A DNA stretch of 47,778 bases. Source: a virus. Location: IMG/VR virus record IMGVR_UViG_3300036846_000621, positions 1 to 47,778 of that record. The stretch is one strand, 5' to 3'. Made by a program: the position numbers and the translations under genes. Under the pieces are notes generated by a model. It searched no databases. It saw nothing but the letters and a program-made list of their open reading frames with translations, and was not told where the DNA came from. Numbering within the stretch: position 1 is the stretch's first letter; each line of letters opens with the position of its first letter. Below, piece by piece: positions 128 to 47,778 of this stretch.

Positions 128-734
128 CGACGACCTGGCTGACGAAGAGGAGGACGAGGAGATCGATGAGGACGAGGAAGAGGAGGACGACGAAGAAGAG
201 GATGAGGAAGAGGACGACGAAGTCCCCGCCGCGAAGAAGACGAAGAAGGCCCCACCGGTCAAGAAGGCCGCGAAGAAGCCTGTCAAGAAGAACTCGGTCA
301 GCGCACAGGACGTGGCAGAGGCGCTGTCGACCAAGGCGAAGAAGGTCAACGGTCGCGAGCTCAGGGTCTTGCTCAGGCAGAAGGGGCTCAACGAGACCGC
401 CAAGAACGAGCAGGGCCGGTACGAGTGGCCCAGTCTCGCAGCGGCGCTCGAGGCGATGGGCTTCGAGGACCTCGAGGAGGCACGCGAAGCGCTGTTGGAG
501 TCGCGTGACCAGCGCCTCGAGGAGCTGAAGGAGAAGGTCGGGAAGACGCGCAAGACGAAGAAGAAGGTCGAGCCCGAGGACGAGGAAGAAGAGATCGAGG
601 AGGACGATCTCGAAGACCTCGACGAGGAGGACGAGGACGAAGAGGAAGAGGCCCCGCCCCCCAAGCGCACCCGGAAGAAGGCGACGACCACCACGACCAC
701 CACGACGGCGAAGAAATCAACACGCCGCAAGTAG
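42..734 (+). CDS. Acidic/basic low-complexity DNA-binding protein with a central helix-turn-helix-like domain
   Basis: 230 aa, GTG start with an AGGAGG site 6 bases upstream. Visible layout: an Asp/Glu-rich segment (about residues 13-60), a Lys-rich linker, a folded segment (about 88-165), a second acidic run (about 183-208), and a Lys/Arg/Thr tail with eight consecutive Thr. The folded segment has the same pattern of residues as the small proteins at 43157 and 43925 (helix, LRxxLRxK turn, AKN, aromatic residue), so I infer a shared Lsr2-like/winged-helix DNA-binding unit. Alternating acidic and histone-H1-like basic blocks suggest a nucleoid-associated or host-chromatin protein. It is expressed from the strongest promoter seen, across the contig junction, and is followed by a clear terminator. 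Function is not established. Confidence 0.85.
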   Translation: MATRRKAKPKVEVEELEEDEEIDEDELDLDDLADEEEDEEIDEDEEEEDDEEEDEEEDDEVPAAKKTKKAPPVKKAAKKPVKKNSVSAQDVAEALSTKAKKVNGRELRVLLRQKGLNETAKNEQGRYEWPSLAAALEAMGFEDLEEAREALLESRDQRLEELKEKVGKTRKTKKKVEPEDEEEEIEEDDLEDLDEEDEDEEEEAPPPKRTRKKATTTTTTTTAKKSTRRK

Positions 735-745
735 TCACCACAAAG

Positions 746-781
746 GAGGGGGCGATGGGCAACCGTCGTCCCCTCTTTTTT
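746..781 (+). terminator. Rho-independent terminator after the acidic/basic protein gene
   Basis: A 13-bp stem (arms 746-758 and 763-775, two G-U pairs) closed by a GCAA tetraloop and followed by six T. It ends the transcript that begins at the 47598-47626 promoter. Confidence 0.9.
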
Positions 782-10680: not shown

Positions 10681-10716
10681 GGGGGTGAGTTGGTGAATAT
10701 ACCCAACTCATCCCCC
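10681..10716 (+). other. mRNA hairpin between regulator and dCMP-type enzyme gene
   Basis: GGGGGTGAGTTGG pairs with CCAACTCA and TCCCCC with one bulged base. No T-run follows, so it is not a standard terminator. It lies 21 bases before the TTG start of the next gene and would mask a possible GTG start at 10690. A translational or processing control element is possible. Confidence 0.55.
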
Positions 10717-11951: not shown

Positions 11952-12301
11952 GTGAAGAAGAACTTCAGTCATGGCGTGAGAGTCAACGGTCATATCGAAA
12001 GGGGCTTCGAAGGCGTAACAAGGTTACTAAGCACATGGAGGTTGATAAGAATGGATGTTGGATTTGGACCGGCAGTGGTGGTAAGTATGGCCAGGTGCGG
12101 TATAAGGGTAGGTCTTATACGGCTCATAGGTTTTCTGCCTTTGTCTTCCTCAACTTCAACTTAACAAGCGAATTAGTGGTGGCCCACAGATGCGATGTGC
12201 CGCGGTGTGTTAATCCGGACCACCTCTTCATAGGCACCTATAAAGATAATACCCAAGATATGCTTAGTAAGGGTAGAGGCCGATGGCAGAAAGATACGTA
12301 A
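11948..12301 (+). CDS. HNH homing-type endonuclease
   Basis: 117 aa from the GTG at 11948; a TTG two codons earlier is an alternative. It has an N-terminal basic helix, CWIWTGSGGKYGQVRYKG (the AP2/NUMOD-like strand pair typical of phage HNH nucleases), YTAHRFSAFVF and then the HNH core VVAHRCDVPRCVNPDHL with a following GTYKDNTQDM. It overlaps the deaminase by 4 bases and the polymerase by 19. A free-standing mobile endonuclease inserted precisely between two replication genes is the simplest reading. Confidence 0.85.
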   Translation: MSEEELQSWRESQRSYRKGLRRRNKVTKHMEVDKNGCWIWTGSGGKYGQVRYKGRSYTAHRFSAFVFLNFNLTSELVVAHRCDVPRCVNPDHLFIGTYKDNTQDMLSKGRGRWQKDT

Positions 12302-14730
12302 GCCCGTTCGACCATCTAATGAACCACAACTGTACTGACTGTAGCCTACATGAAGGAACGGAGAGAGTATGTATAGGCGGTTCTGGCAACCCGAAATCGA
12401 AGATACTCATACTAGGAGAAGCGCCCGGTGAGAACGAAGCAAGAACAGGTAGGGTCTTTTCTGGGCGAGCCGGTCAACTGCTGGACCTCGCGCTTAAAGA
12501 TGCAGGGCTGGAGAGAGACGAGATTTATGTCTCTAACGTGGTCCGCTGTCGACCCGACGACAACCGTCGACCTAGCCGTGTCGAATGGGAAGCTTGTCGT
12601 CAGTATCTGGAGAGAGAGTCAGCCGCATTATCTCCACGTTTCGTTCTCCTCCTTGGAAACACTGCACTACAGGTGGTCGCTCGTAAGTCAGGCATCACTA
12701 CTAAACGCGGTGTTCGCTTGGATATCAAGGATCCAGTTTGGCAGTCTGCGGAGGTCATGGCAACCATCCACCCAGCATTTGTTCTCCGCAACCCCGGACA
12801 AGGTACAGTTTTTTCCGAAGACATTCGCCGATTTGCCCGAATGGTTCATGGAGAGTTTCGCGCGGTTAGTGTCAGACCTCGGATGGTACGAACATCAAAA
12901 GGACTCAAGCTCGTCAAGCGACTCCTCATGGACGCGCCAGAAGGCACGGTCGTAAGCTATGACGTGGAGAACCGCGGAAGGCCTTGGGAACCTGAGTGGG
13001 ACATCGTCTGCTTGGGTGTTTCACTGGACGGCGAGAACACATACGTCATCCCACTTTCTCATCCTCAGTCTCCATTTCGACGACGTTGGCAAGACGTTCT
13101 CCGCTACCTTGCCCCTGCGCTCAATCGACACGGACATAAGTTGGTGGCTCAAAACGGTAAGCACGACAATGCCCAACTTGCCGGAGCCGGAGTTTACCTT
13201 CGCCATCAGTTCGATATTATGTTGGCTGCACATCTACTGGACGAGAACCGACCCAAGAACCTTGGATTTCTCAGTCAAAATGTCATTGGCGCCGACGTCT
13301 ACAAGGGGATGGTTGAGCTCAAACCTGACAAGATTATGGGCGAACCTCTCCGGAAGATCGCAGAATACAATGGCTACGACGTGGGTTATACTCACCAAAT
13401 CTACCACAGAGTGAGAGAAGAACTGTTGGCCCAGCCCCGACTCACCCGTCTATTCATCAAGCTGATGATGCCCGCCTCGCATGTGATCCAAGAAGTCGAA
13501 ACTGCTGGCATGTACGTCGACCGAACCTTGCTGTGGGACCGTATCGAAATCCTCCAAAAGGAGATAGGGGTCCGCAAGGAGGTGCTCAATGAACATCTAC
13601 CGAAGAAGATGCGGGCGAACTTCAACTTCAACAGCACACAGCAACTCGGACGTTGGCTCTTTACTAAGGAGGGGTTGGGGTTATCCCCTCTCGAGAAAAC
13701 CGCGACAGGCCGACCATCCACACGCGAGGCTGTACTTCTTCACTATCACAATCATCCTGCTATTCGTGCTCTGCTGGAGTACCGAACATTGGAGTTGAAG
13801 TGGCTGAGAACTTGCTTGTTACCATGGTCTATGAAGTTGGATACGCGCTCACGCCTCCACACAACGTACAAGCTGTACGGGACGGTAACTGGGAGATTAT
13901 CTGGCGACCTTCAGCAGGTACCGAGGGATTCTTTCATTCGTGGTGTAATCGGTGCTCCTCCGGGGTGGTGCTTCGTCCAAGCGGATTACTCGCAGATAGA
14001 GTTACGCATCGCTGCCCATGTCTCGGGGGAGCAAAGGATGAGAAGAGCGTTCCTAGCTGGCGAGGACCTTCACTTGCTGACGGCGAGCACGTTGACTGGG
14101 AAGTCTGGGCCTTCAGTGACGAAGGAGGAGAGGAAGAAGGCGAAGGCGGTGAACTTCGGGTTCCTCTACGGGATGTATCCGAGGAAGTTTCAGCAATACG
14201 CCTTCGAGAACTACGAACTCGAGGTGAGTCTGAATGAGGCGGAGCTGGCTCGTCAGCAATACTTCGAGATGTTCCCACAGCTGGTGGGTTGGCACGATCG
14301 CCAGCGTCGTGTGGCCCATAACCATCATCGGGTTGTATCTCCCCTGGGTCGCATACGTCACCTACCTGACATTCTTAGCTCTGACAACGGCGTACGCATG
14401 GAGGCTGAGAGGCAAGCGATAAACTCACCCGTGCAGGCTACAGCCTCGGACTTCATGTTGTTCAGCATGGTGATACTGCACCCATTACTCGACCACAGAG
14501 AGGCGTTCATGGTCGGGACACTTCACGACGCGATCTTCTTCCAGGTGAAGGAGGATAAGATCGATAAGTGGCTACCGATCATCAAGGAAACCATGGAGAA
14601 CCTACCACTCAAGAAGACTTTCGGATTCAAGCCAAGCATACCCATCGTGGCAGATGTTGAATATGCCCAGCACTGGACAGGTACGCCCGACGCCAGCGGC
14701 TTGGGTATAGACTACGCGGATGTGATATAA
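12283..14730 (+). CDS. Uracil-DNA glycosylase / DNA polymerase I fusion
   Basis: 815 aa. Residues 1-200 are a family-4 type uracil-DNA glycosylase: Cys17, Cys20, Cys89 and Cys105 for a 4Fe-4S cluster, catalytic GEAPGENE (45-52), FSGRAGQLLD, NVVRCRP, HPAFVLR (163-169). Then a 3'-5' exonuclease domain (DVE near 226, NGKHDNAQ, YNGYDVGY), then a family A polymerase: motif A DYSQIELR (about 567), motif B KKAKAVNFGFLYG (about 620), motif C LHDA (about 746). The usual motif C is HDE; the final acidic residue is Ala here. No 5' nuclease domain. This is the replicative polymerase; the glycosylase probably removes or senses uracil at the fork. Confidence 0.93.
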   Translation: MAERYVSPFDHLMNHNCTDCSLHEGTERVCIGGSGNPKSKILILGEAPGENEARTGRVFSGRAGQLLDLALKDAGLERDEIYVSNVVRCRPDDNRRPSRVEWEACRQYLERESAALSPRFVLLLGNTALQVVARKSGITTKRGVRLDIKDPVWQSAEVMATIHPAFVLRNPGQGTVFSEDIRRFARMVHGEFRAVSVRPRMVRTSKGLKLVKRLLMDAPEGTVVSYDVENRGRPWEPEWDIVCLGVSLDGENTYVIPLSHPQSPFRRRWQDVLRYLAPALNRHGHKLVAQNGKHDNAQLAGAGVYLRHQFDIMLAAHLLDENRPKNLGFLSQNVIGADVYKGMVELKPDKIMGEPLRKIAEYNGYDVGYTHQIYHRVREELLAQPRLTRLFIKLMMPASHVIQEVETAGMYVDRTLLWDRIEILQKEIGVRKEVLNEHLPKKMRANFNFNSTQQLGRWLFTKEGLGLSPLEKTATGRPSTREAVLLHYHNHPAIRALLEYRTLELKWLRTCLLPWSMKLDTRSRLHTTYKLYGTVTGRLSGDLQQVPRDSFIRGVIGAPPGWCFVQADYSQIELRIAAHVSGEQRMRRAFLAGEDLHLLTASTLTGKSGPSVTKEERKKAKAVNFGFLYGMYPRKFQQYAFENYELEVSLNEAELARQQYFEMFPQLVGWHDRQRRVAHNHHRVVSPLGRIRHLPDILSSDNGVRMEAERQAINSPVQATASDFMLFSMVILHPLLDHREAFMVGTLHDAIFFQVKEDKIDKWLPIIKETMENLPLKKTFGFKPSIPIVADVEYAQHWTGTPDASGLGIDYADVI

Positions 14731-17553: not shown

Positions 17554-18177
17554 ATGAGTCAATCAGAAGGCAAGTTAGTTCTCAAGATGCAACGGAGGAT
17601 CCGAAGCCGCGGCGGCATGGTCTTCAAGATTCACGGCGGAGACAACCCCTTCCAGTCAGTTGGTATCCCAGATCTTCTATGTTGCTTCTATGGACGGTTC
17701 GTTGGTCTCGAAGCTAAGATTCCTGGCAATAAACCATCAGCAATACAACGAGCAACTCTACGCCAAATCGAGGCGGCGGGCGGCATCGCTAGGGTGGTTT
17801 ACTCAGTAGAAGATGTAGATAAAGCACTCGACGACGCCATGGACCACGTAGGCCTAGCATGGATTGCAGGGTTCTTTGACGGTGAGGGTTGTATTACTAT
17901 AAGACCCTCACCGTTCCATGATCGTGGTTATGTTAGACTCACGATCACTCAGAAGGATCCTGCCCCCTTGGTGGCAATACAGAAGATCCTAGGTATGGGG
18001 CACTTAACTAAGACACGATCTAACTGCCATAACCTCCAGATCGGTCGGCAACCCCACGTCAAGAGGTTCTTCACCACTGTGGGTCCGTTCATTCGCCTCC
18101 GTCACAGGAGGTTGAAGGTTGAAGAAGCTTGCGATTTTATGGGCATTGATCGCCCTAACTATTACTTCCACGACTAA
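17554..18177 (+). CDS. VRR-NUC nuclease fused to a LAGLIDADG homing endonuclease domain
   Basis: 207 aa. Residues 1-95 are a complete VRR-NUC domain: GGDNPFQSVGIPDLL (catalytic Asp), then GLEAKIPG (ExK), then QIEAAGGIARVVYSVEDV at the normal domain end. A single LAGLIDADG motif WIAGFFDGEG then begins at about residue 100, followed by the typical homing-nuclease core (LTITQKDPAPL..., KRFFTTVGPF). An in-frame ATG at 17839 marks the junction. VRR-NUC proteins act as structure-specific nucleases; one LAGLIDADG motif would need a dimer. No good ribosome-binding site is seen at 17554, right after the terminator. Confidence 0.85.
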   Translation: MSQSEGKLVLKMQRRIRSRGGMVFKIHGGDNPFQSVGIPDLLCCFYGRFVGLEAKIPGNKPSAIQRATLRQIEAAGGIARVVYSVEDVDKALDDAMDHVGLAWIAGFFDGEGCITIRPSPFHDRGYVRLTITQKDPAPLVAIQKILGMGHLTKTRSNCHNLQIGRQPHVKRFFTTVGPFIRLRHRRLKVEEACDFMGIDRPNYYFHD

Positions 18178-47451: not shown

Positions 47452-47601
47452 ATGACCTTCGACGAGATCATTACGCCCAAGGAACAGCTCGAGTGCCTTG
47501 AGGCGTTGAGAGAGATCACGATCAAGCTTTACATCGCACGGGTCGTGATCTTGATGCTGCACGACCTTATAGACGTACGATTCAAGAGTCTTGTGGTTTG
47601 A
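47452..47601 (+). CDS. Hypothetical small helical protein
   Basis: 49 aa from ATG 47452, just after the previous stop. Helical, with a hydrophobic C-terminal half (YIARVVILMLHDLIDVRFKS). The ribosome-binding site is weak, so translation may rely on coupling. It ends where the -35 of the strong promoter begins. Confidence 0.5.
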   Translation: MTFDEIITPKEQLECLEALREITIKLYIARVVILMLHDLIDVRFKSLVV

Positions 47602-47626
47602 CTTTGGCAGCGGGATGTGATATGAT
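47598..47626 (+). promoter_or_regulatory. Strong promoter for the 42-734 gene
   Basis: TTGACT, 17-bp spacer, extended -10 TGATATGAT. The transcription start is expected near 47633, inside the leader hairpin described next. Together with the 44692-44720 promoter, the best consensus match seen. Confidence 0.88.
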
Positions 47627-47686
47627 AGTTGTGTCGGATTCCTCGCGTCCGACACAACTATCTCATATCCCGCGAGGCATAGGAGG
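47624..47686 (+). promoter_or_regulatory. 15-bp inverted repeat and candidate H-type pseudoknot leader
   Basis: GATAGTTGTGTCGGA (47624-47638) is a perfect inverted repeat of TCCGACACAACTATC (47648-47662). In RNA starting near 47631, GTGTCGGA pairs with TCCGACAC; the loop CCTCGCG (47641-47647) can then pair with CGCGAGG (47671-47677). Loop sizes are 2, 0 and 15 bases, a standard H-type pseudoknot. The AGGAGG site begins four bases after stem 2, so folding could control ribosome access. Confidence 0.6.
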
Positions 47687-47778
47687 TACATCGTGGCAAC
47701 CCGCAGAAAGGCAAAGCCGAAGGTCGAAGTCGAAGAGCTCGAAGAGGACGAGGAGATCGACGAAGACGAGCTCGACCT
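47652..47778. repeat. Terminal direct repeat, copy 2
   Basis: Exact copy of bases 1-127; see that entry. The sequence should be joined here and one copy removed. Confidence 0.95.
47693..47778 (+). CDS. 5' fragment of the 42-734 gene, duplicated by contig overlap
   Basis: GTG at 47693 equals the GTG at 42; the first 86 bases of that gene are repeated and cut by the window end. Not a separate gene. Confidence 0.9.
   Translation, partial: MATRRKAKPKVEVEELEEDEEIDEDELD

Follow-up and report, generated by a model that had tools for sequence, protein, structure and literature searches.

A phage leader pseudoknot beside the Shine-Dalgarno sequence is kept in shape while its stems are rewritten

We analysed 47,778 nucleotides (nt) of virus DNA, IMG/VR record IMGVR_UViG_3300036846_000621, positions 1-47,778 (hereafter the window), in which a strong promoter and a short leader precede the gene of an uncharacterised protein. 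The leader can fold into an H-type pseudoknot, in which the loop of a first stem (S1) pairs with bases upstream of the Shine-Dalgarno (SD) sequence to form a second stem (S2). An H-type pseudoknot lies directly 3' of a strong sigma-70 promoter in 14 of the 16 distinct leaders that we compared, and because its shape is kept in these 14 while the letters differ in nearly all of them, we are all but certain that the pseudoknot is real and under selection. The element belongs to a group of uncultured phages. Our best explanation, over which we are evenly divided, is that a protein, likeliest the gene's own product, may act through the pseudoknot to control how this gene is translated.

The structure proposed for the window by an initial annotation is present to the letter: an S1 of 8 base pairs (bp), a 9-nt S1 loop (TTCCTCGCG) that contains CCTCGCG, complementarity of CCTCGCG with CGCGAGG at the SD flank over 7 of 7 bases, and connecting loops L1, L2 and L3 of 2, 0 and 15 nt (Table 1). 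From the position of the -10 element, the transcript is predicted to start at about 47631-47634. Among 147 SD-like sites in the window, this was the top SD-adjacent pseudoknot, with a stacking energy of -35.7 kcal/mol compared with -26.1 kcal/mol for the next. Dinucleotide shuffles of the whole leader produced no match in 6000 (p ~1.7e-4), and shuffles for S2 given S1 yielded p ~5e-4.

Relatives were found by searching IMG/VR with the core domain of the gene product, which returned 17 related loci in 17 contigs whose core domains are 52-72% identical to that of the window. Two loci, L063 and L064, are identical in leader and protein and count as one leader; the comparison covers 16 distinct promoter-linked leaders, the window's and 15 from IMG/VR. 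All 16 show TTGAC, a spacer of ~17 nt and a -10 element, a strong sigma-70 architecture, ahead of a leader of 47-77 nt, and the leaders share little identity with one another (pairwise median 0.64, gapped global alignment). The gene family was not found in GTDB species genomes, nor in the annotated phage collection by core-domain protein search; a DNA search of that collection for near and distant relatives gave no match, and a third round of peptide-pattern searching for relatives gave no further contigs. Replication proteins are closest, at ~25-43% identity, to those of phages that mostly infect Mycobacterium, Gordonia and Microbacterium and also to those of some Pseudomonas and Serratia phages, and an actinobacterial host is suggested for the window phage. 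No comparable pseudoknot was seen in Muddy and MW202455, annotated phages with related replication genes, and a literature search found no report of this leader element in the library covered. About 50 viral stretches, most of them unrelated (IMG/VR L006-L055), share an extended -10 of the form CGGGATRTG-N-TANNAT preceded by TTGAC. As a marker of relatives this promoter pattern was rejected, since nearly all of the 50 stretches carry unrelated leaders and the pattern is widespread rather than diagnostic.

In the 14 leaders with the pseudoknot, S1 starts at position 2-13 after the -10 element, close to where the transcript is predicted to begin, and S2 is a helix of 6-8 bp between the S1 loop and bases 5' of the SD sequence. 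S2 ends 0-5 nt 5' of the SD sequence in 13 of the 14 (14 nt in L057); the distance from its end to the start codon, a stretch that includes the SD sequence, is 10-28 nt. All 14 S1 sequences are distinct, as are 12 of the 14 S2 5' strands, and each pair position counted shows two to five pair types; G-U pairs occur in three pseudoknots, and the remaining 11 have none. Covariation across both stems in related phages had been named as the check on the structure, and compensatory changes are found in S1 and S2 in 14 of the 16 leaders. Loss of the complementarity behind a conserved promoter, the pattern that was to speak against the pseudoknot, did not hold in the relatives, where promoter and pseudoknot are kept together, again in 14 of 16. 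None of the loop bases is invariant; L1 and L3 differ between leaders both in length and in sequence, the one constant being the low G content of L3 (8 G in 182 nt). In L060, L064, L067, L068 and L071, S1 was picked by hand as the start-proximal helix, which gives L1 and L2 of up to 9 and 7 nt, longer than with the helix preferred by the automatic search. A search of the leader against Rfam 15 gave no family at or above the gathering score; the best matches at a permissive threshold were microRNA models, which scored far below gathering and were dismissed as chance matches caused by the palindrome.

The same energy-based H-type search was run on the leaders and on shuffles that preserved dinucleotides, which matched the selection of the best helix between the two. 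The shuffle test gave p of 0.02 or less in 14 of 16 leaders, with a combined Fisher p of ~4e-24 over all 16, the two failures included, and S2 given S1, tested against shuffled loop and tail, gave a combined p of ~8e-19; the leaders are related by descent and these trials are not strictly independent, yet leader identity is low and the stems are rewritten. When loops and tails were swapped between leaders, S2 became weaker, its mean energy going from -15.0 to -8.9 kcal/mol. By a rough energy (S1 and S2 stacking plus a pseudoknot penalty of 9.6 kcal/mol), the pseudoknot beat the leader's nested fold, computed as far as the SD sequence, in 10 of 14 cases, the exceptions being L070, which ties, and L060, L064 and L067, which are less stable with the hand-picked S1. 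Across the window and six relatives, seven contigs in all, a strong pseudoknot next to an SD-like site coincides with an upstream consensus promoter at this gene only. The next-best promoter-linked SD-adjacent pseudoknot there reaches -18.6 kcal/mol, and SD-adjacent sites of similar energy exist elsewhere in these contigs without a consensus promoter upstream.

Three relatives depart from the canonical form. L061 (leader at about L061:1854-1913) keeps S1, and its loop, GTTCTTC, read by eye, best fits the SD sequence itself (GGAGGAC), making it a possible variant that hides its SD sequence, while L065 has a short leader without the pseudoknot fold. In L066, a LAGLIDADG homing-endonuclease gene (L066:1445-1783; Pfam LAGLIDADG_3, E 2.4e-9) starts just 3' of the promoter (1410), overlaps the start of the regulated gene (1767) and occupies the place of the pseudoknot. 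In T4, segG overlaps the gene 32 pseudoknot (PMC535899), so that T4 and L066 are alike in having a homing-endonuclease gene at the same spot, and this association between homing endonucleases and leader pseudoknots is a second testable lead. The window also encodes a LAGLIDADG-type protein at 17554-18177 (Pfam LAGLIDADG_1, E 1.6e-5).

The contig is circular, with a terminal overlap of 127 nt (window 47652-47778 equals 1-127), and the regulated gene therefore lies at 42-734. The 127-nt repeat is probably an assembly overlap rather than a true terminal repeat, because 127 is a usual assembler k-mer and the relatives have terminal overlaps of 77, 97 and 127 nt. Since it has its own promoter and terminator, the gene is probably monocistronic. 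Its 230-residue product alternates acidic blocks with blocks rich in lysine, arginine and alanine (81 aspartate plus glutamate, 45 lysine plus arginine). An AlphaFold2 model predicts a winged-helix-like core (helix-helix-wing-helix-long helix) at a predicted local distance difference test score (pLDDT) of 85. Fold searches of the core domain against PDB and viral structures gave no significant match, and the top VIA-align match, a MerR-family protein (Z 3.5 over 59 residues), was too weak to use. A Pfam search of the gene found no family; in PHROGs, a single unnamed family of unknown function matches the product, over an acidic stretch.

Table 1. Features of the leader, regulated gene and terminator in the window, and S2 strands (5'/3') of the related leaders
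Feature	Position	Strand	Basis or remark
Sigma-70-type promoter TTGACT-N17-TATGAT, extended -10 TG	47598..47626	+	10/12 consensus matches
-35 TTGACT	47598-47603		17-nt spacer to extended -10
-10 hexamer TATGAT, extended	47621-47626	+	
S1 5' strand GTGTCGGA	47631..47638	+	sequence; S1 position and pairing in relatives
L1, 2 nt	47639-47640	+	
S2 5' strand CCTCGCG, inside S1 loop	47641..47647	+	sequence and relatives
S1 3' strand TCCGACAC	47648..47655	+	L2 = 0 nt
L3, 15 nt, without G	47656..47670	+	
S2 3' strand CGCGAGG, ends 3 nt 5' of SD	47671..47677	+	sequence and relatives
SD sequence AGGAGG	47681..47686	+	6 nt 5' of GTG start codon (47693)
Regulated gene, 230 residues	42..734	+	gene start also present at 47693-47778 via circular-contig overlap
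Conserved core domain (LRVLLR...KNE..RYEW), predicted winged-helix-like fold	294..539	+	mean pLDDT 85
Strong intrinsic terminator 3' of gene (17-bp stem, GCAA loop, T run)	742..780	+	fold of 736-790, -35.3 kcal/mol
S2 of L056			CCTCAC/GTGAGG
S2 of L057			CCTCGCT/AGCGAGG
S2 of L058			AGCGCCC/GGGTGCT
S2 of L059			CTCACCC/GGGTGAG
S2 of L060			TGCCGCC/GGCGGTA
S2 of L062			CCGCCC/GGGCGG
S2 of L064			CTACCC/GGGTAG
S2 of L067			CCGCCC/GGGCGG
S2 of L068			CTGCCC/GGGCAG
S2 of L069			ACCCCC/GGGGGT
S2 of L070			GCGCAC/GTGCGC
S2 of L071			TCTCGCCC/GGGCGAGA
S2 of L072			CTCACCC/GGGTGAG

In the mechanism that we propose, the pseudoknot would form at the 5' terminus of a strongly transcribed phage mRNA that has a short leader and is probably monocistronic, with S2 ending right 5' of the SD sequence and the folded RNA keeping the ribosome-binding site outside the stems. 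The fold would offer a structured, sequence-independent site beside the ribosome-binding site, and a protein bound there could block or slow 30S loading on the adjacent SD sequence. An abundant gene product would in this way limit its own synthesis, a negative autoregulation as in T4 gene 32. The winged-helix-like predicted core and the lysine- and arginine-rich blocks of the product support autoregulation, and the lack of any invariant loop base argues for recognition of shape; the role as regulator, the product as ligand and repression as the direction are all three what we infer. Several points weigh on the other side. The product is the likeliest ligand, but the ribosome or an RNase might serve instead; RNA binding by the product is a guess, its modelled core fold having no significant structural match, and its high abundance is presumed from promoter, SD sequence and terminator alone. 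A sequence-reading protein would leave conserved unpaired bases, and none are seen beyond the G-poor L3. Lastly, the pseudoknot is not indispensable, because L061 and L065 lack the canonical form and L066 has the endonuclease gene instead.

T4 gp32 is the established case of autocontrol of an abundant phage nucleic-acid-binding protein through a leader pseudoknot (PMC3014915), and the gp32 targets of T4 and RB69 retain structure without sequence (PMC535899). The leaders described here resemble those of gene 32 in T4, T2 and RB69 in carrying an H-type pseudoknot 5' of the SD sequence in the leader of a phage gene, and in keeping structure more than sequence, and their mechanism may be like that of the gene 32 operator. 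Between its pseudoknot and the start codon, the gene 32 operator has an A+U-rich tract that is unstructured and contains UUAA(A) repeats (PMC3014915, PMC535899), whereas this tract is absent from the leaders compared here, in which the SD sequence sits between S2 and the start and S2 usually ends 0-5 nt from it. The product here, which has no Pfam family, is also unrelated to the gp32 single-strand-binding protein. Because two defining features, the A+U tract and a gp32 gene, are both lacking, we do not count the element as a member of the T4 gene 32 family. In mycobacteria, rpsO is under the control of a pseudoknot that lies 5' of the initiation site (PMC10931766); it resembles the phage element in position, in the translational control of a single gene that we propose for the latter, and in its actinobacterial setting, the host group suggested here. 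The uS15 ligand requires a U-G/C-G motif in the rpsO pseudoknot (PMC10931766); since G-U pairs occur in only 3 of the 14 phage pseudoknots, mimicry of the uS15 operator is unlikely, and this candidate was rejected.

A ligand-free expression element is the main alternative, which we take seriously while leaning against it: a 5'-terminal pseudoknot would shield the mRNA from 5'-end decay and free the SD sequence or dock on the 30S platform, raising yield without a regulator. S1 lies at, or a few nt from, the predicted transcript start, the promoter is strong in all leaders, structure is conserved where sequence is not, and mean predicted openness of the SD sequence rises from 0.45 without the pseudoknot to 0.62 with it (Wilcoxon p 0.02), all of which fits such an element. 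However, a plain 5' hairpin would suffice for stability, so that the conserved pairing of loop and SD flank needs a further reason, and the same phages do not reuse the pseudoknot at their other consensus promoters. A small-molecule riboswitch of the compact H-type kind seems very improbable to us. preQ1 and SAM-II riboswitches likewise place a compact H-type fold next to the SD sequence, as known translational pseudoknot riboswitches do, but the bases of their ligand pockets are conserved, and the SD sequence or its flank takes part in their fold. Here the SD sequence is outside the stems and no invariant unpaired ligand-pocket nucleotide was found in L1 or L3 of the compared leaders, which argues against a riboswitch, as do the lack of an Rfam family at gathering score and a regulated gene that is not metabolic. 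Least credible of all is that these GC-rich leaders are complementary by chance: S2 has C-rich 5' strands and G-rich 3' strands, and 16.5% of swapped strands reach the weakest native S2, but shuffles of the same composition at the same SD-adjacent position argue otherwise.

The initial annotation had also described a perfect 15-bp inverted repeat in the DNA (GATAGTTGTGTCGGA/TCCGACACAACTATC) starting at 47624, inside the -10 element, and this repeat is there. With a 3-nt indel allowed, it extends to ~25 matched positions over 47610-47677, linking promoter spacer and -10 element with L3 and S2; a blastn self-match of the repeat spans 64 bp at 78%, and the promoter may have an inverted copy in L3. 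The idea that one element acts as both DNA operator and RNA switch did not carry over to the relatives. Reach of the repeat into the -10 element is specific to the window, S1 of the relatives starting at position 2-13 after that element without running into it, and the window's alternative pairing of L3 with the SD sequence, predicted in the absence of the pseudoknot (0.79), is not general. A general switch in which L3 hides the SD sequence, prompted by the window's own fold, was dropped for this reason. A DNA-level operator, in which the promoter repeat would bind a dimeric repressor and the RNA pairing would be incidental, could draw on the perfect repeat and its imperfect extension. Yet the repeat stops short of the -10 element in the relatives, its sequence is not conserved, and it leaves unexplained the complementarity of loop and SD flank kept in 14 leaders; we consider such an operator as improbable as a riboswitch.

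Returning to control by a bound protein, we suggest, with slightly less than even confidence, that the pseudoknots of these phage leaders may be a second class that evolved independently, serving autogenous control of an abundant nucleoid-like protein by shape-only recognition, with stems rewritten in almost every phage and placed 0-5 nt from the SD sequence. An unrelated phage leader pseudoknot with many natural rewrites is a ready series for studying how a protein or the ribosome recognises shape without sequence, and it offers a clue to what an uncharacterised family of phage proteins does. The covariation could be read from metagenomic phages whose leaders have diverged beyond the reach of ordinary RNA-family searches.

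Two further features of the window lie apart from this leader. A strong hairpin of ~13 bp (GGGGGTGAGTTGG with CCAACTCATCCCCC) at 10681-10716 stands just 5' of an SD sequence near a gene that weakly matches thymidylate synthase, and 12283-14730 encodes one 815-residue protein that joins a family A DNA polymerase to an N-terminal domain of the uracil-DNA-glycosylase superfamily.
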